Positions 42,410-61,989 of a DNA stretch of 64,000 nt are shown one piece after another. The notes under the pieces are model-generated. The model searched no databases, was not told the origin of the DNA, and was given only the letters and a program-made list of their open reading frames with translations. The position numbers and the translations under genes were made by a program. Within the stretch, counting starts at the first letter, position 1. Each line of letters starts with the position of its first letter. This DNA comes from Buxus sempervirens (Eukaryota > Streptophyta > Magnoliopsida > Buxales > Buxaceae): assembly GCA_947561395.2 (NCBI GenBank), contig OX387187.1, positions 6,702,976 through 6,766,975 on the forward strand, in the 5' to 3' direction.

Positions 42410-42500
42410 TGTAGACACCCCAAATTGCACAAACAATCATCAAAAATCATTATCTCCTGGAAAGCCAGCACAGAATTTGAAGAAAATATACTTTTACCTG

Positions 42501-42640
42501 TATCCGGATACTCCATCCGGATACAAGTACTTCTTCATGTATCCGGAATGATTATCCGGATACATGTGAGCCTTAATGTATCCGGTACCATGTACCGGAT
42601 ACCTTAAAGCACTTTGTTATCCGGTCTGATATACCGGATA
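42501..42640 (+). promoter_or_regulatory. Array of four TATCCGG-N9-CCGGATA palindromes in the LTR
   Basis: Modules at 42501-42523, 42540-42562, 42579-42601 and 42618-42640: identical 7-bp half-sites, fixed 9-nt centre, exact 39-bp pitch. They lie about 160 bp upstream of the TATA box. The same array recurs in the 3' LTR at 62673-62812. Confidence 0.95.
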
Positions 42641-42797
42641 CCTTAAGTTTGCTCAAAATTAGGGTTTTCCGAGAGCTTTTCACTTTTACCATCATGTCCC
42701 TCATTAAATGAGGGGAAATCGCGGAAATAACCTTAGGGTTTAGGTTGGAGGGGTTCTAGACATTAATTTGTGTCTACCAATGACCTTAGCCCTTGCC

Positions 42798-42805
42798 TAT
42801 AAATA
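42798..42805 (+). promoter_or_regulatory. LTR TATA box
   Basis: TATAAATA in a CCTATAAATAGGAG context. The probable start of genomic RNA lies about 30 bp downstream. Confidence 0.75.
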
Positions 42806-44687
42806 GGAGCCTCCTCCTTGAGCAAATGGCACACAACTCTTGTTTTGAATTCTCGCAAAGAAGAACTCCAAGAGAAGAAGAAAACCGCTGTGGAATCGCC
42901 TCCAGCACTCAGGTAAGCCTCAACTTTTCTTTTTATTTTCTGTCTTTACATTCCTAGATCTAGATCTCTTCTTCTACATTTCTGTAGTGTAAAGCCTTGT
43001 TTGTATGTGTGGAAATCCTTCCCTGGCTCAAAGTATCTCAAGACTCCCCTAGCCGTAAAACGTGAAGGCGGATCTAAGAGAAACGAGACTGGGGATTGAC
43101 CCTAGTGCTAGAACCTATGTAGCATAAGGCCTTTTTGATTGATTGTAAACCGTTCCATATTCAAAGTACCCTTGATTATCTTAAAGAGAACAGAGGGAAA
43201 CGATAATGGAACGGAACCCTAGGCTATGCTAGAACCTATTTTGTTGAATCTATATGCATGTGTATGGATCTTGCTTGGTTTTTTCACTTTTGCACACATA
43301 TCACTATTTTGGCGGGATAGGCTCATATTAGGGGTTTATTGCATTTATTGTGATAAATCTCAAATAAATGGCCTAAATCAATTCTGGAATATTTTTAAAT
43401 GTTTTTCAAAGGTTTTGGATTCATCTCACACGAATCACACACTTTTTATCAATTTTCGGATTTGGTTTTTACTCAAAAATGGCTTAGCTTGACAGCACCT
43501 GTACCCTTACTTCGGACGTCCGTAACTTCATCATCCGGATGAATTTTGGGGTGATTTCAGAACCATGGGAAAGGTGAGGCTGTCTAGTTTATGTCCACCA
43601 AATTTCATGAATTTCTATCTAGCCGATTTTTGACACTTCTCTGTCGAAGTTAAGTGGACAGTTCAGGTCCAAGTACAGAACTTGTCACTTCGACGGACCG
43701 CCATGTGTTCGTTTTAAGTCCGATTCAAGTGGTTTTTATTTCTGAGTACTCCTTTTTGAGTCTATTTTCAAATCCAGTTAGTTTCATAATTTTTGGATTC
43801 CATTTGAATTATTGGTAGCTGATTTACTCAGAACTGCTCATTTGCATTTTTCTGGGTAAATCTGTGATCTTCGGGGCCTGTTCGGGAGACCGCCCAAGGT
43901 ACACCCGAAGGGATTTTTATATGAGGCTAGTTTCTGTTGAAAGATGGCCATACAGACTTCAATCACACCAAATTTCACGGATTTCTATGTAATTGATTTT
44001 TCTAGACAATTTTCCAAAGTTGCCCACTTACTACTTTTAAAAATCCCCAGCAGCAACTTCAAAGGAGCATAACTCCTAGGATTTTTATCCGATTAACTTG
44101 AGATTTTGCATGAGTTCCTTATTTATCATAATCTTTCAAATGGAGTTGGTTTGAATCAATTTAAAATTGGATTTGAATGATTTCAAAACAAAGGACCTTA
44201 CTTTTTACCAAAATTCCCGGATTTGCCTCAACTTGGTTTTGGCCACTTTTACTTTGATTTCCATCTTTTGAAATACTCCAGAAGTGATATTGACATAAGA
44301 GAGGATCTAAAATCCATTTGGATCCTCATGTGAAAATATCATACATTGTTCCTTTTTCAAGGCTTTTTCATGATTTTTAGCAAGTTTTTTATTTTCTTTT
44401 TAGCATGAACATACACTTGGCAACCACTTCGTGTGGATGAATGGGGGTGCCTAACACCTTCCCCTGTTCATAATCTAATCCCCTTACCCATCTCTGGATT
44501 TGATTTTCAAGTAGGGTTATTTTTATCCTAGAATTTGTCTTTTGGCTATTTTTACCTACTTTTGTATCTTTGGTGTCCATTCTCACCCCAAAATCATGAA
44601 TGGTGGCGACTCTCCCACTTTTTGCGTTGAGCCCGTGTGTTGACGGAGGGACGATCACTCCGGTGATTTTTTCCCATGTCTCACAAC

Positions 44688-44706
44688 TGGCGACTCTGCT
44701 GGGGAC
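44688..44706 (+). other. Primer binding site (tRNA-Arg type)
   Basis: TGGCGACTCTGCTGGGGAC, two bases after the LTR end. Complementary to a tRNA 3' end ending CCA, of the Arg type used by Tat/Ogre elements. Confidence 0.85.
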
Positions 44707-44929
44707 TTGTGGATTTAAGCCTTTTTGTGTTTTGTTCATGCTTTCTTTACTTGTGAATGCTTGCTATTTTACTTATGTTATTTGTGCATATTGTGGTATC
44801 TTGAAATCTGATTGGGATACTTTGAAATCTAGATGAATAAAGGCATGCGTATATGGTTGTATTATGCTTAGGATCATGTTTATGGCCTTATCTTGTTGTG
44901 CATGTCTACTTGTTTTTTGTACCTTGTTT

Positions 44930-45310
44930 TAGGAGGTTTTAGTGCCATGTTTTGAGCACGAAAATAATGAGCAAAAATCTGTAAATACAGTAGCCATTAA
45001 GATGGTTTTCAAGCATGTAATCCCTCATGAAAACACTTTTGTATCATGTCAAGTAGTTGCTAAATTTTTAGGCATTAATTTGGGGGTATAAGGGAAGCAC
45101 TTTTGAGCATGAAAATTCTGGAAATTTCAGTGTATATTTGGGGAATTTCAAGCATGTTTTACCTCATTGAAACACTTTTGAACCATGTCAAGTAGTGCTA
45201 AAATTTTAGGCTCCAATTTGGGTAGAAATAGTACACTTTGAGCATGAAAAAGAGCATGAAATCTGGGATTTTAGGGAATGCTTTTGGGTTTCAAGCATGC
45301 TTACATGATT
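44930..45310 (+). repeat. Diverged tandem repeats in the leader
   Basis: Two to three imperfect copies of a unit of roughly 130 bp containing GAGCATGAAAA, TTTCAAGCATG, AAACACTTTTG and CATGTCAAGTAGT. Non-coding. Confidence 0.7.
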
Positions 45311-46064
45311 TAATGGTTGTTTGTACAAATGACATGTTTTGTATAACACTTTTTGGGCATGTGATATTTTTTGTGCATATTTAGTTGTTTTGGTGCTTGC
45401 TTGCTTGTATTTAGCTTCATTATCTTTGTCATTAGTACCTTGGCTTGAAATTGAATGCATGGCTACGAAAAAGAGTGGCAAGGGGCTGGGACGTTGTGAA
45501 TGTTACCACAATTTAAAATTGCACTTGAGCACTTGAAACAATTTGCACAGCCTACCCTTTTACCTATTAGGAAGTAGAACCATGAATGTGTGTAGCTTGG
45601 CGCACCGAGGTCGTGACTTCGGAAAGCGAAAGTGAAAACATTTACCTTAGAATTTGGGTCAATGATGTGATGACAATGGGATCTGTGATTCGATTCCGGG
45701 CATCACTAGACTTGAGTTTTAAGTTGCCAATTAAGCCAAAACCCAAAAACCATACGCTTGAAGGTGGAGAAACACGTTTTCGGCTAAAAGCACAATTGCG
45801 TTTGGGGAAATTGGGTGTAAATGTGGGAAGGCCGTTTGCATGTTTTACAGGCCAAGGTATAATGTGAATACCATGTTGAATGAAGGTAATACAAGGTGGC
45901 AAGGTAAAGCCATGTTCTTTTCCTAAATTTAGGGAATTTTGCAAGTATGATGTCCAAGCCCAATTTGGGGCAAGTTTTGAAGGTCAAATTAAGGTGAACA
46001 TCAATTGGGAATGAAAAAAATCAAATCTGGTGAAAAAATGAGGCAAAAAGGGCCATTTCGGCAA
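45311..46064 (+). other. Leader sequence without recognised features
   Basis: No coding domain recognised. Frames at 45586-45987 overlap on both strands and show no family resemblance, so I do not call an Ogre-type ORF1. Confidence 0.4.
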
Positions 46065-46204
46065 TAACCGGTAACTCAGGCCGGTTAATAACAACTCTGT
46101 TCATATCCGGTACATATTTCCGGATACAAAGACATATGCGGATATCCGGTTAGATTGACCGGATACAATAAGGCATATTCTTATCCGGAATAGTATACCG
46201 GATA
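46065..46204 (+). promoter_or_regulatory. Leader array of four palindromic modules
   Basis: Modules at 46065-46087 (variant TAACCGG-N9-CCGGTTA, both half-sites changed symmetrically), 46104-46126, 46143-46165 and 46182-46204, at an exact 39-bp pitch. No TATA box lies next to it on either strand. Confidence 0.93.
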
Positions 46205-46506
46205 CATTCAAAAAATGCACAAATTGGCTTTTCAGCCCAAATTTTCAAAATAAAATGCCTAAAACACTGTGGATAATCCTTAGGCACCCCGAAAAGAACA
46301 TAAGAAATGTTCCCAAAAATACAAAATCAAAAAAAAAATACAATAAAAAAAAACAAAAAAGGATAAAACATTCTTTCAAGATTTAACCTAAGTTTGAAAA
46401 TCAAAGAGGAAACCAAGGTGTCATATTTTTTGACACCAACTCAACTCAAACATATGTCAATCCAGCTTTAGAACTGGAAAATCTTCTAAAATGCATCAGA
46501 TTTCAA

Positions 46507-47475
46507 ATCAAAAAAATTGGGACCCTTGGAAGCCCTAGAATATTCCATGAAAACCTTGGTTGGTTATTTTTATCAATCAAATCAAAAAAAAAAGAAAATT
46601 GGGACCCTTGGAAGCCCTAGAATATTCCATGAAAACCTTGGTTGGTTATTTTTATCAATCAAACAAAAAAAAAAAAGTTGGGACCTCTGGAAGCCCTAGA
46701 ATATTCCATGAAAACCTTGGTTGGTTATTTTTATCAATCAAATCAAAACATGTGTGGGACGCTTGGAAGCCCTAGAATATTCCAAGAAACCTTTGGTTGG
46801 TTATTTTTATCAATCAAATCAAAACATTTGTGGGATACTTGGATAGAGTAGTCCAAGACACCTTTGGTTGGTTATTTTTATCAATCAAATCAAAACATTT
46901 GTGGGATACTTGGATAGAGTAGTCCAAGACACCTTGGGTTGGTTATTTTTATCAATCAAATCAAAACATTTGTGGGATACTTGGATAGAGTAGTCCAAGA
47001 CACCTTTGGTTGGTTATTTTTATCAATCAAATCAAAACATTTGTGGGATACTTGGAAGCCCTAGAATATTCCAAGACACCTTTGGTTGGTTATTTTTATC
47101 AATCAAATCAAAACATTTGTGGGATACTTGGATAGAGTAGTCCAAGACACCTTTGGTTGGTTATTTTTATCAATCAAATCAAAACATTTGTGGGATACTT
47201 GGATAGAGTAGTCCAAGACACCTTTGGTTGGTTATTTTTATCAATCAAATCAAAACATTTGGATAGAATATTCCAAGATACCTTTGGTTGGTTATTTTTA
47301 TCAATCAAATCAAAAAAAATGAAAACCTTGGTTGGTTATTTTTATCAATCAAATCAAAAAAAAATTGGGACCCTTGGAAGCCCTAGAATATTCCATGAAA
47401 ACCTTGGTTGGTTATTTTTATCAATCAAATCAAAAAAAAAATTGGGACCCTTGGAAGCCCTAGAATATTCCAACT
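46507..47475 (+). repeat. Leader tandem array of about 13 units
   Basis: Units of about 45-82 bp, mostly 71-73 bp, each containing GGTTGGTTATTTTTATCAATC followed by A-rich sequence and either GAAGCCCTAGAATATTCCA or GGATAGAGTAGTCCAAGACA. Two unit types alternate: type 1 at both ends and type 2 in the middle. The long frames across it are repeat artefacts. Confidence 0.92.
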
Positions 47476-47616
47476 CAAAAAAAAACAAAAAAAAACAAAA
47501 ACAAAAACAAAAAAATTTTTCTGGCTGGTGTTCACCTAACCTACTGGTTTACATATATAGGGGTGTGACTCAAGCTAAGTGGAAGCTAACATGTTCTATT
47601 CATTTTTTTCCCTCAG

Positions 47617-47688
47617 GTACATTTAACCCAGGTACATTTACACTTATTGGCAATCATTGCTCCTGTGACCAGATCCAAAGTAAGAACA
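47617..47688 (+). promoter_or_regulatory. Predicted leader-intron acceptor and short 5' UTR exon before gag
   Basis: CATTTTTTTCCCTCAG|G at 47615/47617 is a strong polypyrimidine acceptor 72 nt before the gag ATG. Paired with the donor at 42913 in the LTR, it would remove the entire 4.7 kb leader. Splicing is inferred from signals only. Confidence 0.45.
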
Positions 47689-50600
47689 ATGAATACTGAA
47701 GAGAACCAAGCCCAAGCTACCGTCCCTGCTCAGGACTTTACTCAACTGCAGGAGCAAGTGGCCGGTCTGGCCAAAATGCTGGGGGACCTACTGGCGGCTC
47801 AGGCCCAACAGGCCCAAGCCCCGAACCAGGCATCTACTTCCCATCAGGCACCACCACCTCAGGCCTACATTCCGCCTCCGGTTCAGCCTATGCCTGAGCC
47901 CATTTCTGAACCAGTCCCTGAACCCATTCTGATCAGGGAAAATATGGCGGAGTCTGAGAAAGAGCTGGAGAAAGAAAAGGCCCGAGATGAGATGGAAAAG
48001 AAAATGCTGCTGAGGATAGAAAGAATCCAGGCAGAGCTGAAAGAGGTGAAGGGGGGAGGCAGCCATGCAGGCACCACCTTCGAGGACCTGTGCATGTACC
48101 CGGATGTCTGTCTACCGGCTAAGTTCAGGTGCCCGGATTTTGACAAGTTTGATGGCACGGGCTGCCCATTAAGCCATCTGAAACTATACTGCGGGGCCCT
48201 GTGCCAGTTTGGCCGGGACGATGGAATACTGATCCAGCTCTTCCAGAGGAGTCTGACCGGGTCAGCCCTTCGGTGGTTCGCTACGGTAGACCATGGGAGA
48301 ATCAGGAGGTGGAAGGACCTAGCCGACGCTTTCCTGGACCAATATAAGTTCAACTCGGAGATCGTGCCGGACCGGTACGACATGATGAGGATGACCAAGG
48401 GGAAAGATGAACCGGTACGGCAGTACGCCAAGAGATGGAGAGAGGCCGCCTCCCAGGTCAGGCCACCTATGCAAGAGCCGGAGATGATCTCCACATTTAT
48501 GGGCACACTGGGGCAGCCCTTTTACAACCATCTGGTGGGTCAGATCACCACCAACTTTGCAGCCCTGGTACAGGTAGCGGACCGGATCGAGGAAGGGGTC
48601 AGGTCAGGACGGCTAATAGACTACTCTACTCTGACTGGGCAGTCTGATTCCTCGGCCTCCATGGCCCAAAAGAAAGGGGCCGGATTTAAAAAGACAGGGG
48701 CCCGAAAAGAAGGGGAAGTGAACCTGGTCCAGGCTCCTCCAGCCAAGAAGCCACTGCACGTCAACATCTCGGCATCCCAACAGGCCCAACAGGCCCAGCA
48801 GTCGTACCAGACCCCGCTGAATGTCAACTTCTCTCCCTCTGTGCCAGCTAACACAAGGAGGACCTTTTCCAAGGAGGAGCGGGACGCCTGGTTCGCAGCA
48901 AGAAAGAACCGGGTTTTCACCCCTCTACCCATATCTCTTTCCCAACTACTGCCAACCCTGCTGAAAGGGGAGTACTTGACTCTGAAGGAGCCTAACCCGA
49001 ATGCCACCAGGGGAAGAAATTTTGACACATCGGTCACCTGTGACTTCCACATGGGTGCACCGGGGCATTCTACAGATACCTGCTGGGTATTGAAGCATGC
49101 GGTCCAGGACCTGTTGGACCAGAAGGCTTTGGTCTTTAACACTGCTGCACCCGCCCCGTCGGGGAATGATATTGGGCAGAATCCTCTGCCTTACCACAAT
49201 GGGGCAGACCCATCCAACTCCATCACTGCCATATCCACCACCAGAAGGGCCTTTGACCCATCACAGCTTATAGCACCAGTAGGGACCACTGTCCAGGTCC
49301 GTTTCTTCCAAGAAGAGGAAAAAGAGGAGATCAACATGGTCTCCCAAAAAAATAACAATACAGCTGTTGAGGACATAAGTTCCTCTTTAAACCGGGTCTC
49401 ATCTCTTATGACCCAGATGAATACTGCAAGGCCCCCATTGGTCTTCAATTGCAGTCCACCCATTTGCTCACCATCCAAGCCGTCTAAGGCTCCACTGGTC
49501 ATCAATCTTGACCCCACCACTGCTTCCATCACTTCTTCTGTCCCCACCAAATCCAAACTTCAACCCCTGGTTGTAAATGTGCAGCCAGCCCATACTATCC
49601 CTAAACCGGCCCATACATCCCGGTCCAGACTCCAGCCATTAGTGGTTAACATCCCTAAACTAGCCTATTCAGAGGCCGCTGTACCATGGAATTACAGCGA
49701 GGGAATCACGGCTACGGTTCCAGTGGTCAAGGACCAGAACCAGGAGGAGGTGAACCTCATGACGAGGTCGAGGAGATGTGCAGGGGGTGAAGAGAAAGAA
49801 AAGGAGACAGAAGCAGAAAAAGAAAAAATAGAAAAAGAAAATGAAAAAAGAAAACAAAAAGGAAAAAATAAAGTGGGAGAAGACACCCCCCAGGGTGCAG
49901 AAAATGAGGCAGCAGACCTCATAAAAATAATAAAAAAGAGTGAATTCAATCTTGTGGACCAGCTAAACAAGGTCCCGGCCCAGATTTCAATACTGGGCCT
50001 TTTGCTAAATTCTGAAAAGCACAGGGATGCATTGTTAAGGGTGCTACAGAGTGCACACGTATCCCAGACCATTGATCCGGACCAGCTTGGTAAAATGGTT
50101 GGTCAAATCTTGTCACATAATGTGATAAGTTTCTCAGAAGGTGAGATCAGCCCAGGTGGGTGTTATCATGTGGACCCTTTGCACATCACTGTGCTTTGTA
50201 AGGGCTGCATGGTTGCACGGGTTTTAATTGACAACGGGTCAGCGTTAAACGTTTGCCCGTTAATCACTTTTACCAAGCTGGGTCTGGACCAGTCGAGGAT
50301 CAAGCAAAATGGGCGGATAGTGAGGGCTTTCGATAGCTCTAAGACCCACTCCCTAGGGGAGATTGAACTGCCGGTCACAATTGGGCCGAATATCTTTAAC
50401 ATCACATTTGAGGTGATGGATATACCCGCAGCCTTCAATCTGCTCCTAGGGAGGCCGTGGATACATTCGGCTAGGGCAATACCATCCACGCTCCACCAAA
50501 GGGTGAAATATGTAAGAGGGCAAAGGGTGATAACAGTCCTAGCCGAAAACTTGGTGCCGCCCATTGTGTCACCTGATGTACCATTAATCAATGTGGACTT

Positions 50601-51417
50601 GACTGTCGACAAGATTGCATTCCACTCATTTCAATTTGAGGCGGTAAATTACATACCTGGGGGGTGTGAGAAAAAGAAGGAAAAGGGGACCACTGCAGAG
50701 AGGATGGTCAAGAAAGTGATGGAGAAATACCACTTTCACCCAGGGAAAGGCCTGGGGATCAATCTGCAGGGGATGGTAGAGCCAATCACGGCTAAGAAAC
50801 TGATCCCCAAGGTAGGGTTGGGCTTCAAGCCCAGAGGCTGGAGAAGAATGAAGCACGAAGAAGGGGAGAGCAGAGGCAAAGGAAAACTCCCTCCTTTAAG
50901 GGAAAGTTTCCCTAAACCCGCTTATATAATCCAAATTTCTCCTCCTATGGACCAATCAAAACCTCCCTACTACAATGTCAACCCATTTCAAAAGCCTCCT
51001 GTTTCGGCCCTCCAACCCTATAACCCTTCTCCAATACTGGGAGCAGCAGATGGGCTTGGATCACAGCCCGAGCAGCAGGTGGACTTTTCTGAGGATGTTG
51101 GTGCATTCTTCGCCATGACTGAAGGCGAAAAGACAGGGGCAGACATGGAACTGCCGTTTATTGACTGGGCCGCAGTAAAGGTTCCAGACAAGGTCATTTC
51201 TGAATTGGGCCCTGTAGCAGAAAAGGGCAGTACCCACCCGGTGATGATGGCATCGGATGCTGGGCTTGAAGAGCAGGCTTTCCCTATTTCCCCTGCTCCC
51301 CAAAATTTTGTACTGAACAATTGGGAGGAAACTCCCCTTACCTTTGAAGCAGGGTTAGTGTGGCAAACTGACGCGGCTTCCAAAAAAAACTCCAATAGTG
51401 GAATGCCATTTCCCTGA
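47689..51417 (+). CDS. gag-pro: Gag-protease polyprotein with G-patch
   Basis: 1242 residues from ATG at 47689; the open frame extends upstream to 47647 without an earlier ATG. Gag core about residues 140-290 (LKLYCGALCQFG, LTGSALRWF, DAFLDQYKFN, ESVRQYAKRW-like). A CX2HX5HX4C knuckle, CDFHMGAPGHSTDTC, is near 450, as in related plant gags. A Lys/Glu-rich charged segment lies near 690-725. Retropepsin is near 840-950 with the active site LIDNGSALNV and LLLGRPW. A G-patch follows near 1010-1050 (FHPGKGLGINLQG). It would form the virus-like particle and process the polyprotein. It overlaps the pol frame at its end. No internal stop. Confidence 0.95.
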   Translation: MNTEENQAQATVPAQDFTQLQEQVAGLAKMLGDLLAAQAQQAQAPNQASTSHQAPPPQAYIPPPVQPMPEPISEPVPEPILIRENMAESEKELEKEKARDEMEKKMLLRIERIQAELKEVKGGGSHAGTTFEDLCMYPDVCLPAKFRCPDFDKFDGTGCPLSHLKLYCGALCQFGRDDGILIQLFQRSLTGSALRWFATVDHGRIRRWKDLADAFLDQYKFNSEIVPDRYDMMRMTKGKDEPVRQYAKRWREAASQVRPPMQEPEMISTFMGTLGQPFYNHLVGQITTNFAALVQVADRIEEGVRSGRLIDYSTLTGQSDSSASMAQKKGAGFKKTGARKEGEVNLVQAPPAKKPLHVNISASQQAQQAQQSYQTPLNVNFSPSVPANTRRTFSKEERDAWFAARKNRVFTPLPISLSQLLPTLLKGEYLTLKEPNPNATRGRNFDTSVTCDFHMGAPGHSTDTCWVLKHAVQDLLDQKALVFNTAAPAPSGNDIGQNPLPYHNGADPSNSITAISTTRRAFDPSQLIAPVGTTVQVRFFQEEEKEEINMVSQKNNNTAVEDISSSLNRVSSLMTQMNTARPPLVFNCSPPICSPSKPSKAPLVINLDPTTASITSSVPTKSKLQPLVVNVQPAHTIPKPAHTSRSRLQPLVVNIPKLAYSEAAVPWNYSEGITATVPVVKDQNQEEVNLMTRSRRCAGGEEKEKETEAEKEKIEKENEKRKQKGKNKVGEDTPQGAENEAADLIKIIKKSEFNLVDQLNKVPAQISILGLLLNSEKHRDALLRVLQSAHVSQTIDPDQLGKMVGQILSHNVISFSEGEISPGGCYHVDPLHITVLCKGCMVARVLIDNGSALNVCPLITFTKLGLDQSRIKQNGRIVRAFDSSKTHSLGEIELPVTIGPNIFNITFEVMDIPAAFNLLLGRPWIHSARAIPSTLHQRVKYVRGQRVITVLAENLVPPIVSPDVPLINVDLTVDKIAFHSFQFEAVNYIPGGCEKKKEKGTTAERMVKKVMEKYHFHPGKGLGINLQGMVEPITAKKLIPKVGLGFKPRGWRRMKHEEGESRGKGKLPPLRESFPKPAYIIQISPPMDQSKPPYYNVNPFQKPPVSALQPYNPSPILGAADGLGSQPEQQVDFSEDVGAFFAMTEGEKTGADMELPFIDWAAVKVPDKVISELGPVAEKGSTHPVMMASDAGLEEQAFPISPAPQNFVLNNWEETPLTFEAGLVWQTDAASKKNSNSGMPFP
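51382..51389 (+). other. A8 run in the gag-pro/pol overlap
   Basis: CCAAAAAAAAC lies in the 59-nt window where both frames are open (51359-51417). It is a candidate site for +1 frameshifting or transcriptional slippage linking gag-pro to pol. Confidence 0.5.
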
Positions 51418-54400
51418 AGGTTCTAATGGGCCTTCGTCTTCAGGGGAATTATGTTTAGAAGGCCCACAAAAAACCCAAAAAGATTTTTCTATTTTTTCTA
51501 GAAAATTTAATTTTTTCAAAAGGGTCCAAACCACTTATGAACCATATAATCAGACCGAATTGGACCAAGTTGAATATGACTTCGACCTTGAGCTCGACTT
51601 TGATCTCATGGGGGTCGAAGAAGAGACCGAGGTCGAAGAAGAAGACGTTCCAAAAGAAATTGAATACCAATTGGAACGTCATGAAAAGGGGGTCCAACCT
51701 AATATTGAGGAGACCATATCCATAAACCTTGGGACCAAAGATGACCCAAAAATTGTGAAAATCGGGTCATGCTTGTCTGATGTGCAGAAAAATGAAATGT
51801 CACAGTTCTTGGCAGACTACAAAGATGTGTTTGCTTGGTCATATTGGGACATGCCGGGGTTGGACACTGACATGGTGGTGCACAAGTTGCCAATTTTGCC
51901 AGGGGTTAAGCCGATTAAGCAGAAGCTGAGAAGATTGAAGCCTGAATGGACCTTGAAGGTCAAGGACGAAGTGGTCAAACAATTCCAAGCTGGATTTTTG
52001 GCAGTCTCTACGTACCCAGAGTGGCTTGCGAACATAGTGCCGGTACCAAAGAAGGACGGGAAAGTCCGGATGTGCGTGGACTATAGAGACTTGAACAGGG
52101 CAAGCCCAAAGGACGATTTTCCGCTTCCACACATCGACATTCTGGTCGATAATACTGCGGTACATAGCCTGTTTTCCTTCATGGATGGGTTCTTAGGATA
52201 TAATCAGATCAAGATGGCTAAGGAGGATCAAGAAAAAACGGCATTTATCACACCTTGGGGCACATTCCACTACACGGTCATGCCGTTTGGGCTTAAGAAC
52301 GCTGGGGCAACATACCAGCGGGCCATGACTGCACTATTCCATGACATGATCCACAAGGAGATGGAGGTCTATGTGGACGATATGATTGCCAAATCATGCA
52401 AAGAGGAGGACCACTTGATCAATCTGAAGAAAGTGTTTGATCGGCTCAGGAAGTACAGTCTACGGCTTAACCCGGCTAAATGCGTCTTTGGGGCTACATC
52501 AGGGAAGTTACTGGGGTTTATAGTGAGCCGAAGAGGAATTGAAATTGACCCGGCAAAAGCCAAGGCCATAATTGACATGCCAGCACCCAGAACTGAGAAG
52601 GAGGTCAGGGGCTTTCTTGGAAGGATTCAATACATAAGCCGGTTCATAGCACAGCTCACTGCTATCTGTGAACCAATTTTCAAACTTTTGAGGAAAGATA
52701 ACCCGACGGTCTGGAATGAGGACTGCCAGCAGGCATTTGACACAATAAAGAGGTATTTGCTGAACCCACCTGTGCTAGTGCCACCAACTCCAGGAAGACC
52801 ACTGATCCTGTACTTGTCAGTGTTGGAAACGTCGATGGGATGTGTCTTGGGGCAGCATGATGAGACTGGTAGAAAGGAAAGGGCAATTTACTATCTGAGT
52901 AAAAAATTCACAGAATATGAAGCCAAATACTCGCCATTGGAAAAGACTTTCTGTGCCCTAGTGTGGGCCACTCAGAGGCTAAGGCATTATTTCCTTAGTC
53001 ACTCCACACTATTGATATCCCGGATGGACCCGCTAAAGTATTTATTTGAGAAACCGGCATTGACTGGCAGGACGACAAAGTGGCAACTGCTACTGTCCGA
53101 GTTTGACCTCACATACATCACTCAGAAGGCAATCAAGGGTCAAGCCATAGCTGATCACCTGGCTGCACATCCTCTGCCAGAATATCAACCCTTGAAGACC
53201 AACTTCCCAGATGAGGCAATTCTGTACACTGAAGAGGAGGACAGTGAGAGTTCTTGGCAGATGTTCTTCGATGGGGCCGCCAATATGAATGGGAACGGAA
53301 TAGGGGCAGTCTTGGTTAAACCAGATGGTTCACATATCCCAATTGCAGTAAAGCTGAGATTCCAGTGCACCAATAACATAGCAGAATATGAGGCATGCAT
53401 AATTGGATTGCAAGCAGCCATGGATCATGGAGTAGAGGAACTTGACGTATACGGGGATTCGAGTCTTATCATCTTCCAAACAACTGGTGAGTGGAAAACC
53501 AAGGATCACAAATTGATCCCCTATCACCAGTATTTGGAAGAAATAAGCACAAATTTCACTCGAATTTCCTTCAACTATATGCCAAGGGCCAAAAATCAGT
53601 TTGCGGATGCTCTAGCAACCTTGGCTTCAATGGTCAGCATACCAGAAGGAGTAGACATCAGACCACTGGAAATTGAGGTCCGAGATGAACCGGCTTACTG
53701 TCTCGTTCTAGAGGGAGCACCAGAAGAAGAAGCACCATGGTTTCAAGATATCAAAAATTTCTTGAATAATCGGAGTCTGCCAGAAAATGCCACTGCTACT
53801 GAGAAGAGGATAATACAGAGATTGGCTGGTCAGTTTCTGCTAAGTGGTGGACATGTGTACAAGAGGTCACATAGCGACATTCTGCTAAGATGCGTAGCCA
53901 AGGCTGAATCGGAAAAGCTGATTGAGACTGTACATGGAGGAGTCTGTGGGCCCCATATGAGTGGACACATGTTGGCTAAGAAGATCCTGAGGTTGGGATA
54001 CTACTGGACGACCATGGAGCATGATTGCTGTATACATGTCAGGAGGTGCCATCAATGCCAAATCTATGCAGATAACAAGCATGCACCCCAAGGTGAGCTG
54101 CACAACATGACATCACCCTGGCCCTTCTCTATGTGGGGCATAGATGTTATTGGCATGATCTCACCTAAGGCATCGAACGGACACAGATTCATCCTGGTGG
54201 CGATTGACTATTTCACTAAGTGGGTGGAAGCGGCTTCATATGCAAATATCACAAGCAACCATGTTATGAAATTTTTGAAGCACAATATCATTTGCCGCTA
54301 TGGACTGCCAAATGCCATAGTATCCGACAATGCTTCAAATATTAAGAACAAGGACATGAAGAAAATGTGTGAGCAGTTTCAGATCACCCACCATAAGTCA

Positions 54401-54985
54401 GCTCCATACAGGCCAAAGATGAATGGGGCAGTGGAAGCAGCAAACAAGAATATAAAGAAAATCATTCAGAAGATGGTAGTGAGCTACAAAGATTGGCATG
54501 AAATGCTACCACTCGCTCTACATGCCTACAGAACTTCGATTCGGACCTCAACTGGGGCAACCCCGTACTCCCTAGTCTATGGGATGGAAGCAGTCTTGCC
54601 CGTGGAAGTGGAGATCCCATCACTCCGAGTGCTCACGGAAGCAGAACTAGAAGAAGCCGAATGGATCCAGTCGAGACATGATCAACTTAACCTGATAGAA
54701 GAAAAGCGGTTGAAAGCGCTTTGCCATGGACAGTTGTACCAGAAGAGAATGGCCCGGGCTTACAATAAGAAAGTGAGGCCCAGAACTTTCCAAGAAGGAA
54801 ACTTAGTGCTAAAGAAAATTCTACCATTTTTGGAAGATCCTCGTGGTAAGTTCAAGCCCAATTGGGAAGGCCCATATATCGTCAAGAAAGTCCTGTCAGG
54901 GGGTGCACTCATCTTAGCAGAAATGGATGGGTCAGATTTTCCTGAGCCCATTAACTCTGATGCAGTAAAAAGGTATTTTCCTTGA
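51398..54985 (+). CDS. pol: Pol: reverse transcriptase, dual RNase H, integrase
   Basis: 1195 residues counted from 51398; the frame is open from 51359 and lies +1 to gag-pro. RT about 150-370 with MCVDYRDLNR, MPFGLKNAGATYQRAM and YVDD (about 325). First RNase H about 460-570 (LILYLSVLETSMG, YSPLEKTFCALV). Second, archaeal-type RNase H about 615-740 (FFDGAANMNG, NIAEYEACIIGL, DSSLII, NQFADALATLA); this doubling marks the Tat lineage. Integrase from about 840: HHCC zinc finger ending CHQC, then D914 (GIDVIG), D977 (SDNAS) and E1012 (VEAANK), giving D,D-35-E. No chromodomain; ends VKRYFP. All catalytic motifs look intact. Confidence 0.96.
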   Translation: MECHFPEGSNGPSSSGELCLEGPQKTQKDFSIFSRKFNFFKRVQTTYEPYNQTELDQVEYDFDLELDFDLMGVEEETEVEEEDVPKEIEYQLERHEKGVQPNIEETISINLGTKDDPKIVKIGSCLSDVQKNEMSQFLADYKDVFAWSYWDMPGLDTDMVVHKLPILPGVKPIKQKLRRLKPEWTLKVKDEVVKQFQAGFLAVSTYPEWLANIVPVPKKDGKVRMCVDYRDLNRASPKDDFPLPHIDILVDNTAVHSLFSFMDGFLGYNQIKMAKEDQEKTAFITPWGTFHYTVMPFGLKNAGATYQRAMTALFHDMIHKEMEVYVDDMIAKSCKEEDHLINLKKVFDRLRKYSLRLNPAKCVFGATSGKLLGFIVSRRGIEIDPAKAKAIIDMPAPRTEKEVRGFLGRIQYISRFIAQLTAICEPIFKLLRKDNPTVWNEDCQQAFDTIKRYLLNPPVLVPPTPGRPLILYLSVLETSMGCVLGQHDETGRKERAIYYLSKKFTEYEAKYSPLEKTFCALVWATQRLRHYFLSHSTLLISRMDPLKYLFEKPALTGRTTKWQLLLSEFDLTYITQKAIKGQAIADHLAAHPLPEYQPLKTNFPDEAILYTEEEDSESSWQMFFDGAANMNGNGIGAVLVKPDGSHIPIAVKLRFQCTNNIAEYEACIIGLQAAMDHGVEELDVYGDSSLIIFQTTGEWKTKDHKLIPYHQYLEEISTNFTRISFNYMPRAKNQFADALATLASMVSIPEGVDIRPLEIEVRDEPAYCLVLEGAPEEEAPWFQDIKNFLNNRSLPENATATEKRIIQRLAGQFLLSGGHVYKRSHSDILLRCVAKAESEKLIETVHGGVCGPHMSGHMLAKKILRLGYYWTTMEHDCCIHVRRCHQCQIYADNKHAPQGELHNMTSPWPFSMWGIDVIGMISPKASNGHRFILVAIDYFTKWVEAASYANITSNHVMKFLKHNIICRYGLPNAIVSDNASNIKNKDMKKMCEQFQITHHKSAPYRPKMNGAVEAANKNIKKIIQKMVVSYKDWHEMLPLALHAYRTSIRTSTGATPYSLVYGMEAVLPVEVEIPSLRVLTEAELEEAEWIQSRHDQLNLIEEKRLKALCHGQLYQKRMARAYNKKVRPRTFQEGNLVLKKILPFLEDPRGKFKPNWEGPYIVKKVLSGGALILAEMDGSDFPEPINSDAVKRYFP

Positions 54986-55930: not shown

Positions 55931-57647
55931 CTAGTCTCCTAGCCGCTCCTCAAGCTCCCGAATCCGAGCTGCCTGAGCCGCAATGACTCCTGAAGCCCCC
56001 TCTGCAGCGGGATCACTCAAGAAGGAAATGACCTCATCTGAAAGGGCCTGCCTGATCCGCATACTCCTAAGGCTGGCCAAAGTATCCTGGTACTTCTGCC
56101 GGATCATACGGACCTCGAAGCAACGGGCCTGCCTCTGCTCCTCCAGCTTCTCTTCCACAGCAATACGGCGTGAGATCTGCTCCTCAAGCTGCCTCTCCAG
56201 ATAAGCGCCCTGTATCCTGAGCTCCTGGGCCTCCCGTACCCATATCTGCTGAAGCCGCTTATGAGAAGCCCGCTCAGACTCTAGAATGTCCTCATAGGTG
56301 GGAGCCAAGACTACAGGAGGATCTTCGGGTACCGGGGCCTGAGTCTGTATCTGTCCCTTAATCCAGAAGAGATAATCCTTCACGTGGGCTTTTGAGAAGA
56401 CTGGACCATGCATGAAGCGGACATAGGACCACTCCTTCATCAACCAGGCATTCAGCTTCATAGAAAGGGGCCCAAGACGATCCTCATATCCACATGGGAT
56501 GATAATCCCCTGGGTCGCACGGAACTGACGAAGGACCCGCAGAGGAAGATACAGCACTGCATGCTTCAGGCCCGCTAGGATCAAAAAGTTGCGGTCACGG
56601 AAGCTAATCACTGTCTCCGCATTAGGCTGATAAGTACCAGGCCATCTGACCTGGTCATCCTGAAGCGAGCCCAAGAAAGTGAACCAGCCCTGTTTGCCCC
56701 CGGAATATCGGGGCACCCCCTGTTGCTCATCAAGAGAGGGACTTTCAGACTCGGGAAGAAGTGTCGATTGATCTCTTCAATTTGGCTCAAATGATCAAGT
56801 AGCCAAAGCTGCAAAGGAAGAGAGAGGTGTCAGCACATTGTATAAAAAAAAGAAGGAAAAAAAAAGAGGCAAAAAGAAAGCCAAAAAGCAAGAAAAGAAA
56901 ACAAAAAAAAAAAGAAAAAGAAAAAAAAAAACTTTTTACCTGCAGGATCTGAGCACATGCTAGGAAGCGTTTCGACTTCCTATTGTAGCAGTCGGTTAAG
57001 GCCTGATACATCTCAGCTAAAATCATAGGGGCCAACCTCTCCCTCTCCCTAACCTGGCATATCACTGAGATCAAGGCCAAGTCCACCTCATCATCATCCC
57101 GTGGAAAAAGCAACTGGTTGACCACTATCAGGGTCAACGCATTGAATCGGGCCTCCTTATCTTTCCCCCTCAAAAGCTTCTCAGTCAAAAAAGCCTTAGA
57201 TAGGGTCAAAAGGGTGTCAGAATCCCCCAAGTCCTTCTTCCCTATGCCCAAAAAAGTAGAAGCTTCCTTCTTGTAACTGGGCCTAAGAGGTGGATTCACC
57301 ACCTTCTCATCAAACCTCAGGCCCAGGATGGTTTCCACCTCTTCAATGGTGGGGGTCATCTCATGGGTCCCAAAACGGAACAAGTTGAGATCAGGAACCC
57401 AATGACCAATCATGGCCTCTATAATCTCCCACCTGAAGGGAACCTTGGGAATGAGCAGGGTATGGCCTAGGTTGGTAGTACCCCATCTCCTCTCCTCATC
57501 TAGGGTCATAGAGTTAACCCACCGTGTGTAAAAGGAATCCACAAGGTTGTACCTAGTGAGATTTGGGGGTTTTGATCTAAAAGGTTGTTTTGCAGGGGAG
57601 GCAGTGTGGACAGACAATAATGGGGCAGAAGATGATCCAGATTCCAT
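55931..57647 (-). CDS. Antisense gene 1: PMD-type protein, probably frameshifted
   Basis: Exon 1 57647-56940 (236 residues from ATG at 57647) has plant mobile domain (PMD) hallmarks: VDSFYTRWVNSM, HWVPDLNLFRFG, HEMTPTIEEVETILGLRF, FNALTLIVVNQLLF, FLACAQILQ. A GT-AG intron (56939-56809) with a T-rich tract joins exon 2, LWLLDHLSQIEEINRHFFP, from 56808. Near 56753-56756 the homologous frame changes by one base, then runs VPRYSGGKQGWFTFLGSLQDD to a coiled-coil tail (ERASHKRLQQIW ... ARIRELEERLGD) and stop at 55931. So it is a recent pseudogene, or carries one sequence error, or has a further splice. Its own TATA box and palindrome array lie just upstream. Function unknown; cellular PMD proteins act in gene and TE silencing. 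Confidence 0.8.
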
Positions 57648-57757
57648 TGGATTTGACGGGAGCAAGCTAGAACTCAAGAGAAGGAAGAAAAAGGCGAAAA
57701 AGGGGGTTTCTAAACTCAAAAACTCGTAAAAAATGCTCAAATCCCGAGGCAGGCTGC

Positions 57758-57764
57758 ATTTATA
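57758..57764 (-). promoter_or_regulatory. TATA box of antisense gene 1
   Basis: Minus strand GCTATAAATGC, 111 bp upstream of the ATG at 57647 and 13 bp downstream of the palindrome array. Confidence 0.65.
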
Positions 57765-57777
57765 GCATCTTTTAACA

Positions 57778-57916
57778 TATCCGGTAACTCAGACCGGATA
57801 CAAAGGATTTGGTAATATCCGGATAAGTATACCGGATACAAAGGATTCCATGAATATCCGGTATGACATACCGGATACAAAGACCAATCAATGTATCCGG
57901 TATGTCAGACCGGATA
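57778..57916 (-). promoter_or_regulatory. Array of four palindromic modules upstream of antisense gene 1
   Basis: Modules at 57778-57800, 57816-57838, 57855-57877 and 57894-57916, pitch 38, 39, 39. Half-sites perfect. The intervening 15-16 nt begin CAAAGGATT or CAAAGACCA, so the array also looks like a 39-bp tandem repeat. Confidence 0.95.
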
Positions 57917-58137
57917 CCGAGAAAAAATGCAAAAAAAGAGCTAAGGATGAAAAAATCCGAATTTTTTACCTGTTTTACCTGCTTACAAGTCATAATTGCA
58001 TAAAATTGAGAACAAAAGATGTGCAAGACATGATAGAATGAATAAAAAGTTTTTTCATATATATCTGGAAGTTTTGTACAGGGATGAGGATAAATACATG
58101 AAAAATGAAAAAAATCCTAATCTACTCCTCTGCAGGA

Positions 58138-60817
58138 TCATCCCCCGCGTCCTCGGCCGCGTCCACCTCTACGGCCTCGCCCCCAAAGTCCTCGGCCTCT
58201 AGAGTAGGCAAGGATCTGCTCGGCTGCATGGCGAGGATGCCGACCTACCACCTGCTGAAGATGATACTCCAAGCAATAATCCTCGAGATCTGGGGGAGGA
58301 GCAGGAGTAGAATCTGGGGAAGAAGCCTCAGGCTCAGCAGCAACCGGCCCAACTGGGCCCTCATCCAAAGCATCCTCTGCTCCCGCGACTCCAGAAGACC
58401 CAGCATCAGCAGCAGAGGGGATAGGATCAGAAGTAGCTGAGTCCACAGAAAAGAGAAAAATCAGAAGACTCAGATATAAGGAAGAATAAAAGAGGAGAAT
58501 TAAAAGAAGATCATACCAGGAATGTCTGCAGAAGGAGCAGGAGGATCCGGCTCACCAGGATCAGCAGCTGGGACATCCACAGGATCAGAGGCCCGAGCAG
58601 GAGATGGGTCAGGAATCAAGAAATCAGGCTCAAAGAAGGCATCCTGATCATGGGCCGGGCCCTGCACAAGTCAAACAAACATATCAGAATAGCAGAAACA
58701 GGAAAATAATGAAAGAAATGAAAATATGAGAAAGCCAGATACCTGTCTAGCCTGGAGCTCAGCAACCAAGGCCTCCAGCTCCCTGATCCGGGCATCCCGC
58801 TGGGCCACGACCGCATCATGCTCCGCGATCATATCATCGATCGCGGCCCGCTGGCTCTCGAACCGGTCCCTGATAGTGTTCAGCTCGTGTACCTGTCAAC
58901 AGAAACCAAAGAGGATCAGAAATGCATACAGAAAGGCGGATAAAAACAGGAAAAGTACAAGACTTACAGTGTCCTCGTGGATCCGGATGCGGATCCCGCC
59001 AATCTCTGTCATCCCAGCACGAGTGGGTCGATCCATCAAGCATCCTATAGACACCCTCTGGAACCACTCGTCATAATCTCCAACTACTGTAAGCCCCTCC
59101 GCATCCAGGAAGTGATCGAACTGATCAACATCAAAGCCAGGGAGGAGTGTGTCGGGACCCACAGCAGGAGGAGGGACGGGGATGCGAAGTGCGCCAGTGT
59201 GCTGGAAGTACAGGCGCTCTCCCAAGTACATCACCCTACCAAGCCTCCCAAGGAAGCACTGGTAGGGCTGACGTCGTCGATCTCTATCGAAGGCGTCCTG
59301 TACCGCCATCTCACGGGCCACTCCGACGTCCACGTCATCAAATCGGGACAGGAGGAGCTGCAAAAAAAAGAAAAAAAATCAGGTACAGTCAAGATACAGG
59401 AAAAGAGATAAAAAGGAAAAAGGATAAAGGGTTTACATCAGGTCGGCGGGCACGGTCCAAGTGCACCCGAGCGGTGCGGGGCTGACTCCTATCAGCATCT
59501 CGGACCTGGGCCGACCACCGCAGAGCCACAGGAAAATCCGCGACCTCAGGTACCGGGGATGGGCGGAAGAAGGTCATATAGGTGTACATGAACACCTAGC
59601 AAAAGAAAAATCAGCTAAGAAAAGATAAAGCCTAAGGAATTAAACCAGACAGATGAATTCAATACGTGCAGAATCTGCCAGAAGAACCGACTGCTAACTC
59701 CATCGCCTCTCGGGGATGCCAGACCTCGAACTGCACGGCACAACCCGGCCAAGATGGTCCCATAAATGAGCCGACCCCATGCTAGCTGGCGGGTCTGATG
59801 GAGATCTCTCAAAGCGTCCAGGAAAAGTGGGCTGACGCCGGTCGTATCATCCGGGAAAAAGCAGCTCCCAAGCATCAGCCGGAATACGTGCCGGAAGATA
59901 GGCACAAAGGCTGCATCCTCCACGGAGACGGTCTCGTGTCTCCTCTCAAAATGTCGAGCCAGACTCTCCCGCAGCCAACTAATGGAAAGCTGGCCGCTCC
60001 GCCCATCCCAAGCAGTTGGTGGCAGGGCCTGATATCCCAAGAGAAGTCCCATATCCTCCGCAGAGGGCCGCTCCAAGACGATGGTCCGTCCCGTCAAAGG
60101 AATGCCAGTAATCATCACAAAATCGGAGGGGCGGATCCCCAGCTCCACGTCCGGCAGGTGGAACGATTGTGTCTCTGGAAAGTATCTCTCCATCATGGCA
60201 AAGATGAGTGGACGGTCGGCTCTGAATGATGGAATGCTGAGGAAGTGATCCAGGTGGCACCTCCCAAACTCCCGCCTGAGTGCCGGAGAAAGTGACCGTG
60301 CCAACTCGCTGAATCTCCCCCAGCTGCCGCGCAAGTGGGAAGAGTAGTAGGGAAGCGGCACATCAGCCCTGATGCACATAGAGGGGTGGCTATCCAAGCC
60401 ATGGAGGAGCTCTGTATCATGCACAGAAGCCCTCAACTCCTCAGAGACCCCTGCCAGAGCTACAGCAACCCCCTCTGGAGCCATATCTCTGGCTCTGCCT
60501 CGGCCTCTACCACGGCCTCTCTCGCCCTCAGGGGCCTGATCCTGAACTCTGCCTCTGCCTCTGCCTCGACCCCGAGCCGGTGCAACCATGGGCTAAATTT
60601 CAAAGAGAAAGGTGTGAAGATTGTGTGGGAAAGGAGAATAGAAGAAAGAAAAGAAAGGAAATTTTTTTTGAAGGCCTACCTCAGCAGAGCTCTCTCGAGA
60701 ATCGCCTAATGGCTCGGACAGGGTGGCACTAGAACTAGTCTCAATCCGAGCTCGAGAAGAAGAAGGCCGGTCGGCCGGGTCAACCTCCTCACGCACACGA
60801 GAGCGACTCCTAGCCAT
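58138..60817 (-). CDS. Antisense gene 2: PMD protein with RGG boxes, apparently intact
   Basis: Seven exons predicted with GT-AG sites and matching phases: 60817-60680, 60592-59666, 59595-59437, 59357-58968, 58892-58743, 58661-58517, 58436-58138; 735 residues with stop TGA at 58138. N-terminus MARSRSRVREE, then an RG-repeat run (about 53-82), PMD region about 120-355 (FGRCHLDHFLSIPSF, MMERYFPETQSFHLPDVELGIRPSDFVMITGIPLTG, WLRESLARHFERR, WGRLIYGTILAGLCRAV), MYTYMTFFRPSP, a coiled coil (QRAAIDDMIAEHDAVVAQRD), an acidic Pro-rich stretch, and a C-terminal RGG box. RGG boxes suggest nucleic-acid binding, probably nuclear. Regulation: palindrome array and TATA about 1.1 kb upstream with a probable leader intron. 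No stop or frameshift seen. Confidence 0.85.
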
Positions 60818-61913
60818 CTACATACAGCAGGGAAGTGTCCTATGAGATCTAATCCTACTTTGCTTTGAATCTAAATTCAGTTTAAATTTATCAGGAATTC
60901 TACTTGGTTTTGATCTAGATTCATTGCACATTTGTTAGGAACAATACTTGGCTTATTGGGTCCAGATTCAATTCATGTTTAATAGGACCTTGGTCTCTTC
61001 AAAGCTATTGTCAAGAATTCTAACTCAATTTTGTGGTCTGTTGCAGTTCAAGTGTTTCTGGAAAAATTTGAGACAGATGCAAAAGATTATAATAAGTGGC
61101 TCTCCAGACAAGCTAGTCTCAAGAATCATCAAGGATTACCAAGAAAAAAATCAATTGCAGGAAAAGAAATACCACATGATCAAGAATTGGCCATCGAGTC
61201 CGAAAAGAGCCAATGGCAGTACAATGTCAGCAATTCAGAAAAACATCAAAGAGCAGTCAAGAACAAATCATGTCACTGGCAAACAATTCTGAGGTCTAAG
61301 GCAACAGACCATGGTCATCAGGAATCATAAATGACAGAGAAAATGTGGCATGGCATCAAGTCTGAAATTTCCAACAGTATAAAAAGCTTATGAACAAGCT
61401 CGGTCAGCATGCAAAGATTTTACAGAAAATACAAACTCCAATCCTAGGCACTTATGGAGAACAATGGAGAAGGGAGCAATCAAGAACAATCAAACAGTAA
61501 TTCACAAAATGAAGAAAAAAAAATGCAAGTGGCAATTCGGTGCTAAGCTAAACAAGAGCATGTCAGTTGAGGAATGCCAAGCTAAAGTCACTGTTTGATT
61601 AGCAATAAGAAGAAAGAAAAACCTGAATGCAGGTAGAGAAGTTGGATTGGTTGTGGGAAAGAAGAAGGAACCACCGGAATCCGAGAATAGTCGATGAACA
61701 GTGAGAAAATCGCGAGCTAGGGCTCGGCCACGACTGTGAATGAGGAATTGCCGAAGTCAGAGCGTCGCCGGAGCTCAGGGACTCGCCGGAGGTCGCCGGA
61801 GCTGGTGAGGTTCGAAGGAGGATCGTCGGGCGTCGAAGCAAAGAGGAGGATAGCCGGTCTGAGTAATCGGAGCAAGAAGAAAAGAAAAGGAAAAGTCGCG
61901 GTCGCGCGCGACT
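60818..61913 (-). promoter_or_regulatory. 5' UTR and probable leader intron of antisense gene 2
   Basis: Minus-strand transcript from the TATA at 61914 would begin with a CT-rich, GC-richer leader (61890-61623) ending CTGCATTCAG|GTTTTT. The ATG at 60817 is directly preceded by TATGTAG, a possible acceptor, so about 60818-61621 may be a leader intron. Sense-strand frames here are not convincing. Confidence 0.45.
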
Positions 61914-61919
61914 TATAAA
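61914..61919 (-). promoter_or_regulatory. TATA-like box of antisense gene 2
   Basis: Minus strand GGTTTTATAAGTC, 9 bp from the palindrome array, facing gene 2. Confidence 0.5.
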
Positions 61920-61927
61920 ACCTGGGG

Positions 61928-61989
61928 GATCCGGATACTCAGGCCGGATACCCGCAGACCCTCGATTATCCGGATACACTCACCGGATA
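61928..61989 (-). promoter_or_regulatory. Two palindromic modules upstream of antisense gene 2
   Basis: Modules at 61928-61950 (one outer base changed, GATCCGG) and 61967-61989, exactly 39 bp apart. Confidence 0.9.

Follow-up and report, generated by a model that had tools for sequence, protein, structure and literature searches.

A rigid palindrome array shared by sense and antisense promoters of Ogre-like retrotransposons in Buxus sempervirens: candidate operators for dimeric DNA-binding proteins

Introduction

What would keep the same short palindrome, at the same spacing, in several separate parts of one retrotransposon? The question is raised by a stretch of 64,000 nucleotides from Buxus sempervirens (assembly GCA_947561395.2, contig OX387187.1, positions 6,702,976 to 6,766,975 of the forward strand), referred to below as the window and numbered from its first letter. 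The window holds one young Tat-clade retrotransposon that starts at 42410 and extends past the window end. Arrays of the 23-bp palindrome TATCCGG-N9-CCGGATA lie in its long terminal repeats (LTRs), in its leader and ahead of two antisense genes, both of which match the Plant Mobile Domain (PMD). A preliminary description of this sequence had proposed that conserved half-sites in a fixed geometry are what the site of a dimeric protein looks like. Comparison among copies points the same way, and the arrays are probably DNA-level operators for dimeric, lineage-specific DNA-binding proteins that would co-regulate sense and antisense promoters. The finding is also larger than first stated: it takes in many copies, an element without a detectable PMD and a second half-site alphabet.

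Palindrome arrays in the window and across the genome

The exact pattern occurs 16 times in the window, against a mean of 0.00 in 100 shuffles. Array 1, in the unique 3′ (U3) region of the 5′ LTR (42501-42640), consists of four exact modules starting at 42501, 42540, 42579 and 42618, a pitch of 39 bp, and is repeated in the 3′ LTR (62673-62812; exact modules at 62673, 62712, 62751 and 62790). Array 2, in the leader (46065-46204), has exact modules at 46104, 46143 and 46182, preceded by one at 46065 that reads TAACCGG...CCGGTTA and so carries two symmetric differences. Array 3 lies before antisense gene 1 (57778-57916), with exact modules at 57778, 57816, 57855 and 57894 and a pitch of 38, 39 and 39. 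Array 4, before antisense gene 2 (61928-61989), has two modules, one of the form GATCCGG...CCGGATA with a single difference (61928) and one exact (61967). All fourteen modules counted in the preliminary description were located, 12 of them exact and two (46065 and 61928) imperfect. The pitch of 39 bp with one exception was borne out, only the step from 57778 to 57816 being 38. When up to three mismatches were allowed (1.07 matches expected), the search returned, beyond the imperfect modules, just one lone match with two mismatches, at 56083.

The imperfect modules are regular features of the family. The first leader module reads TAACCGG on its left side in seven of seven copies and is symmetric in six, the right side having decayed in the seventh; the GATCCGG form of the leading module ahead of antisense gene 2 is common to all seven. 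The nine-base centre, described at first as free to vary, is mostly so, except that the outermost module tends toward YAACTCAG(G/A) across arrays (42501, 46065, 57778 and 61928), across copies and in a divergent element, family 2, that is described below; the window's own LTR copy deviates from this form. Since outermost modules tend to keep such a centre, part of it may also be read. Comparison of modules gave mixed signals on how the arrays are oriented relative to transcription.

The preliminary description placed the pattern within one retrotransposon, which understates it. A scan of 676 Mb of genome found 28,399 exact sites, and the reversed pattern, used as control, gave 5. Allowing centres of N0 to N30 lifted the count merely to 28,817 (control 58), so that 98.5% of the sites have exactly nine bases in the centre; the genome-wide total for linkers of N1 to N31 was 20,415 (control 92). 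The first 100 sites listed individually all come from the first ~6 Mb of one contig (C1), and 90 of them are N9. Their 58 neighbour distances of up to 150 bp comprise 49 of 38 or 39 bp, eight of 77 or 78 bp and one of 103 bp, and 57 of the 58 fit a 39-bp register within 1 bp. Across 33 arrays from the window and the fetched loci (one LTR per element, with the family-2 LTR array divided at its 103-bp gap), there are 82 steps, 78 of 39 bp and four of 38 bp. Random centre length and pitch in relatives, named beforehand as a result that would speak against the preliminary description, were looked for and not seen. The other such result, an equal frequency outside the family, was checked in part: besides the low reversed-pattern count, all 90 listed N9 sites on C1 are members of arrays (87 read in fetched loci, 3 taken from the listing alone).

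Viral contigs were considered as a further source of such sites and dropped. There, 107 stretches match the pattern and 79 of the 80 listed carry a single site. The exception, L050, has three sites. This contig is phage-like and bears no relation to the arrays of the plant; its TTATCCGG-rich region, with dense TTATCCGG/CCGGATAA sites, lies between open reading frames (ORFs) at 3490-3790. No relatives of antisense gene 1 or of pol were found in viral contigs.

Conserved half-sites and drifting linkers

Copies from the first 6 Mb of C1 allow the constraint on the arrays to be compared with that on their surroundings. Elements A to E have the same four arrays as the window element (W), with both LTRs. 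Element F is shorter, with ~9.7 kb between its LTR arrays, and keeps the LTR, leader and gene-2 arrays; in the stretch read there is no gene-1 array, and the antisense ORF queries found nothing that matched. The alignment took in ten LTR, seven leader, six gene-1 and seven gene-2 arrays, together with as much as 200 bp of flank. Nucleotide diversity (pi) between copies was 0.012-0.032 in the half-sites, 0.081-0.306 in the centres, 0.102-0.257 in the linkers and 0.067-0.265 in the flanks. The fraction of missing bases was 0.000 in the arrays (0.002 in the LTR linkers) and 0.010-0.219 in the flanks, counted over window-copy columns only, a procedure that misses an extra base of C, D and E in the first gene-1 linker.

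The same contrast holds within single elements. When the three four-module arrays of the window are compared with one another, 164 of 168 half-site letters are identical, as against 90 of 220 in centre and linker. Over all same-rank comparisons within elements, the figures are 1018 of 1064 (96%) and 639 of 1484 (43%). The leader array can still be aligned with the array of antisense gene 1 (69.6% over 161 bp, E 8e-10), so these two share ancestry as old duplicates. Where only one side of a module has changed within CCGG, 11 of 12 changes are C>T or G>A, the pattern that would be expected of post-insertion decay.

An apparently recombinant LTR, L127 (3006-5187), adds a further comparison. Its body is 94.6-97.2% identical to the window LTR, unlike its array and upstream U3, which resemble L130. 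Against eight others, its half-sites agree at 444 of 448 letters and its centres and linkers at 383 of 656. This mosaic suggests that arrays may have been exchanged as cassettes.

Placement relative to promoters

Several arrays stop just short of a TATA box, the boxes being assigned by eye against the consensus. On the reverse strand, TATAAA of antisense gene 1 (57759-57764) lies 13 bp from array 3, a gap kept in six of six copies. Antisense gene 2 has a TATA-like TATAAG (61912-61917, reverse strand) 10 bp from array 4, and this distance recurs in four of seven copies (W, A, D and F). A CG-rich inverted repeat, AAGTCGCG...CGCGACTT, lies directly downstream of the gene-2 TATA position (window 61893-61914); it is present in B and C, the TATA form of which is lost, and has two changes in E. 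In the window copy, the LTR TATA box TATAAATAG (42798-42806, forward strand) was matched by eye 157 bp past array 1.

A third promoter of the close type comes from family 2, one divergent element represented by L128, L132 and L133. It contains gag-pol and LTRs of ~2.9 kb, the copies of which are 99.5% identical, and its primer-binding site is presumably tRNA-Arg-like. Its LTR bears two arrays of the TATCCGG palindrome. The first contains the 103-bp break in pitch and ends 12 bp before TATATA in both LTRs (L128 and L133); the second, 0.9 to 1.1 kb downstream, has two exact and two altered modules. A symmetric GATCCGG...CCGGATC module is also present in this element. Taken together, in three promoter types (both antisense PMD genes and the family-2 LTR) the array ends 10-13 bp before the TATA box.

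A second half-site alphabet

The geometry is not restricted to one pair of half-sites. The pattern G[AC]CCGT-N9-ACGG[GT]C has 27,391 sites genome-wide (control 34), or 28,994 when centres of N0 to N30 are allowed (control 5,713). Among 50 listed sites, 22 neighbour distances do not exceed 150 bp, and all of these are multiples of 28 to within 2 bp. Both alphabets share CCG-N11-CGG, and their pitches of 39 and 28 bp differ by 11 bp, which would be close to one helical turn.

Three loci without TATCCGG, L157, L158 and L159, are similar to a portion of the family-2 LTR (72-74% over 58-250 bp). In each of them a second-alphabet array is followed, after 14 bp, by TATAAA, and the surrounding sequence (TTTGCCTATAAATAG) is much like that in the window LTR. 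Two have a second array 0.8 to 0.9 kb off, and the third has a listed site 855 bp away. Another LTR without TATCCGG, inserted at L134:4223, carries second-alphabet dyads in a 28-bp register and matches the window LTR at 92.9% over the first 28 bp and at 68% over 306 bp further in. L134 had been considered as an element with its own PMD genes beside a second-alphabet array; this link was dropped because the LTR is indicated to be an insertion beside an unrelated PMD element. Second-alphabet arrays also occur close to the ends of several window-type elements (C1:3409083-3409186, 4233347-4233450 and 4538248), which could be nested insertion by chance or target preference.

A scan for clusters of at least three perfect 6-bp dyads, covering 260,826 bases in 46 loci that were mostly chosen by the pattern, found 30 clusters with a spacer of nine, every one of the ATCCGG/AACCGG type; within that scope the second-alphabet array of L134 was not flagged. 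At other spacers it returned the known arrays in shifted registers, plus the leader repeats and a few others.

The host element and its antisense genes

The element is bounded by a 5′ LTR of 2276 bp (42410-44685, forward strand; first letters TGTAGACACCCC), its length being set by the pair comparison, in which divergence begins after 2276 bp. Over this length the two LTRs differ by six substitutions, and the target-site duplication GTGCA flanks the element on both sides. The 3′ LTR (62582-64000, forward strand) exits the window and truly ends 857 bp beyond it. Two bases past the end of the 5′ LTR, at 44688-44705 on the forward strand, is a primer-binding-site-like TGGCGACTCTGCTGGGGA, possibly of the tRNA-Arg type. 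Tandem repeats with units of ~71-76 bp (TTGGTTGGTTATTTTTATCAATCAAATC...) occupy the leader just 5′ of gag (46503-47485).

By the ORF list and Pfam scans, the forward strand encodes a gag-type ORF (47689-51417; Retrotrans_gag and G-patch) and a pol ORF (51359-54985) with reverse transcriptase, RNase H, a second RNase H (RVT_3) and integrase. Within pol, RT_RNaseH (478-582) is followed by RVT_3 (637-755) and rve (922-1019), and this position of the second RNase H, between RNase H and integrase, is that given for the Tat clade in the excerpt of PMC6317226 that defines it. Extra ORFs with a PMD, which are common in Ogre, are present, both antisense genes exceeding the PF10536 cut-off. Ogre proper typically has an intron-like gap between its gag-pro and pol ORFs, of 274 bp on average according to the same excerpt. 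Here gag and pol overlap at 51359-51417, and the element is therefore filed under the Tat clade as Ogre-like, not as Ogre proper.

The antisense genes sit between pol and the 3′ LTR, on the reverse strand. Gene 1 has a first ORF (56790-57647, from the first ATG; Pfam DUF7745, 4.7e-18, and PMD, 1.1e-13) and a second (55931-56776) that is glutamate/arginine-rich, coiled-coil-like by eye and without a Pfam match. The main ORF of gene 2 (59615-60592) has an RG-rich start followed by a PMD (2.2e-13). These ORFs are under purifying selection: over six copies (W and A to E), the mean ratio of nonsynonymous to synonymous substitution rates (dN/dS) is 0.10 for the first ORF of gene 1 (over 57647-56940), 0.23 for its second ORF and 0.06 for gene 2. 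One or two in-frame stops, relative to the window frame, occur in the first ORF of gene 1 in C and D, in its second ORF in A and E, and in gene 2 in E. A protein search with gene 2 returned three PMD relatives, and none were returned for gene 1 or for gene 2 minus its RG-rich start. A sequence search among solved structures gave no match, and the fold predicted for the gene 2 ORF was of too low a quality to be used (mean predicted local distance difference test score, pLDDT, 38.4).

The domain is very abundant in this genome, with 8,447 first-look candidates, of which all 117 that were scored exceed the cut-off. Some candidates are paired ~3.4 kb apart, apparently in another element family; examples of PMD loci are C9:33187484-33191975, C14:24506346-24510840 and C4:42315242-42319742.

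A proposed operator and its rivals

Half-sites, centre length and, nearly always, pitch are kept while the letters between them drift, and several arrays stand close to promoters; together these are the signature that a dimeric protein on double-stranded DNA would leave. The evolutionary evidence for a putative role at the DNA level is good, and the interpretation offered in the preliminary description is supported in part: its reading of conserved half-sites in a fixed geometry is well borne out by the comparison. On the proposed mechanism, each 23-bp module would bind a symmetric dimer that reads two TATCCGG half-sites across the fixed nine-base centre. The 39-bp repeat would then place several dimers in register upstream of a promoter. 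Because the same operator stands at the LTR U3, in the leader and at both antisense TATA boxes, a single trans-acting factor could act on sense and antisense transcription at once, as a switch or as protection. What we infer is binding by a dimer, joint regulation of the promoters and the direction of that regulation, be it activation, repression or anti-silencing. In related LTRs the geometry is unchanged but the half-site is the second one, G[AC]CCGT, which makes it probable that the factor is one of a family in which specificity has diverged along with the element lineages.

For the binder, the antisense PMD proteins are obvious candidates, and candidates only: they stand behind the same operator, they are under selection, and PMD proteins of Arabidopsis are tied to the use of a promoter motif. 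That the binder is such an element-encoded accessory protein, the product of one of the two PMD genes, which would also serve PMD-less relatives in trans, is a tentative proposal. Tentative, too, is the wider picture of at least two parallel, orthogonal circuits in the Ogre-like retrotransposons of this plant. Each would have one dyad geometry (CCG-N11-CGG core, nine-base centre) with an alphabet and pitch of its own and would stand ahead of the LTR promoter, the first also before the antisense genes. The element-encoded binders would have co-diverged with the sites, PMD proteins being prime candidates, and elements without a PMD would be served in trans.

Several observations weigh against these proposals. 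The first gene-1 step is 38 bp in three of six copies (W, A and B) and 39 bp in the other three (C, D and E), so one base of slack in the pitch is tolerated. Copies A to I were found through exact modules, which biases the set toward intact sites; with one exact module subtracted from each array that has one (two have none), exact modules still number 50 of 84, and differences affect 44 of the 1,176 half-site letters. Nor is every array promoter-proximal. In the window family, 156-168 bp separate the array from the LTR TATA box in all seven copies measured, so that the two are not adjacent, and the TATA form of gene 2 is changed in three of seven copies (B, C and E). Inspection by eye showed no TATA box flanking the leader array, the role of which is the least clear among the arrays. 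As to a PMD binder, pol and the 3′ LTR of family 2 are 2.2 kb apart; none of ten ORFs tested in this interval matched a PMD, and neither gene 2 nor the second ORF of gene 1 had a tblastn match there. Since this element has arrays and no detectable PMD, the binder need not be a PMD protein of the same element, and the operator is not tied to one. At other PMD loci, 20 stretches of 501 bp contained no TATCCGG (one strand counted), and the PMD-bearing L134, L135 and L136 have no TATCCGG half-site on either strand.

A serious rival to the PMD binder, unlikely as we judge it, is a host transcription factor that reads TATCCGG, with a paralogue reading G[AC]CCGT, recruited in the way of other plant LTR promoters. 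Such a factor requires no binder encoded by the element, accounts for the arrays of family 2 and would typically be found at promoter-proximal sites. Against it, the reversed pattern gives only 5 sites and all the listed C1 sites belong to arrays, so that no host use of the full 23-mer is visible in that part of the genome; the existence of two alphabets in a common geometry, with over 27,000 sites apiece, is a better fit to diverging element lineages. Less likely again is an anti-silencing or insulator role, in which a protein bound to the arrays would strip away or block DNA methylation instead of activating transcription, the way VANC acts on VANDAL elements. Nearly all half-sites contain CCGG, which is both a CG and a CHG site, and a non-promoter role is possible at the leader array, given the missing TATA box. 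VANC motifs, too, are arranged in tandem outside coding sequence and vary from one related element to another (PMC5735166, in part), and excerpts of PMC7156037 and PMC9899485 have Arabidopsis PMD proteins acting in silencing and gene expression. The second alphabet (CCGT/ACGG), however, keeps a CHG site on one strand only.

The palindromes might instead act as RNA, forming hairpins with a 7-bp stem and a 9-nt loop in the genomic transcript, for example as packaging or translation signals. The arrays would be expected inside the sense genomic RNA, the U3 array at its 3′ end only, and all four arrays folded are far stabler than shuffles (z -9.8, -8.0, -8.8 and -3.1), although strong folding holds for any array of palindromes. 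Some changes preserve pairing (the symmetric T>A of the first leader module and GATCCGG...CCGGATC in family 2), but ahead of antisense gene 2 the outer pair is lost in seven of seven copies through the GATCCGG module. Pairing in the centres is at chance (31, 21, 25 and 17 of 57 distinct centres, against 29.5, 23.8, 25.5 and 22.3 expected). Hairpins would also have no need of a constant 16-nt linker and leave the position just before TATA boxes unexplained, and we consider them improbable. Least probable are neutral, functionless tandem repeats copied among parts of the element. The shared ancestry of the leader and gene-1 arrays would suit such copying, and tandem arrays are reported in 32 representative Retand elements in an excerpt of the survey PMC11963269. 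Decay of neutral repeats would, however, strike half-sites and linkers alike, which is not what the within-element identities show. Methylated CCGG is expected to decay fastest, and its retention would count against neutrality as well.

Excerpts of PMC7264820 and PMC11963269 assign no known function to the conserved antisense genes that plant Tat-clade retrotransposons carry, and one of PMC9899485 calls the PMD mode of action in Arabidopsis largely unclear. An operator common to LTR and antisense promoters would provide a concrete link, narrowing the problem to which protein binds and whether it raises, lowers or protects transcription, and the arrays are candidates for the DNA on which PMD proteins act. 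With two half-site alphabets in a common geometry, each present in over 27,000 natural copies, this one genome would provide a large data set on protein-DNA co-divergence. The arrays resemble a private switch system of a giant plant retrotransposon family.

Relation to known systems

Repeated factor sites in an LTR or leader are familiar from the U3 host-factor boxes of Tnt1 and Tto1 and from the Su(Hw) array of Drosophila gypsy. These differ from the present arrays in having a single location and known host factors, and they are not known to involve antisense gene promoters. Gal4-type sites, CGG-N11-CCG, also consist of inverted CG-rich triplets at a constant distance of 11 bp. The present sites have the triplets the other way round, CCG-N11-CGG, and lie in a plant retrotransposon; no zinc-cluster domain was found among the Pfam matches of the eight ORFs scanned.

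Closer to the host element, the antisense genes are comparable to other accessory genes of the Tat clade, such as Grande gene23, the Retand TRP28 ORFs and the PMD extra ORFs (eORFs) of Ogre (PMC11963269, in part). A PMD is given for 57% of the Ogre elements surveyed in an excerpt of PMC6317226. An operator common to LTR and antisense promoters is not described in the excerpts of these two accounts, and a search of open-licence PubMed Central papers found none in a Tat-clade element. The preliminary description knew of no Tat/Ogre element with this arrangement, and the same search also found none. PMD proteins have been tied to a promoter motif in Arabidopsis, where MAIN and MAIL1 are linked to the DOWN motif (PMC7156037 and PMC9899485, in part). 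Unlike the present sites, that motif reads CATGCAGTTT in the MORC1 promoter as excerpted, and by eye it resembles neither half-site.

The nearest working parallel is VANC and its VANDAL elements, DNA transposons of the Mutator-like (MULE) group in Arabidopsis. In the excerpt of PMC5735166, a short tandem motif likewise lies in non-coding parts of a mobile element and differs between related elements. There, the binder is encoded by the element (PMC5735166, same excerpt), as may be the case here. The arrays described here differ in belonging to an LTR retrotransposon and in their form, which is that of rigid dyads with a nine-base centre and a pitch of 39 or 28 bp, several of them just before a TATA box. 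What appears to be new is a variant of element-specific regulatory arrays, one in which a putative operator is common to the LTR and the antisense promoters.

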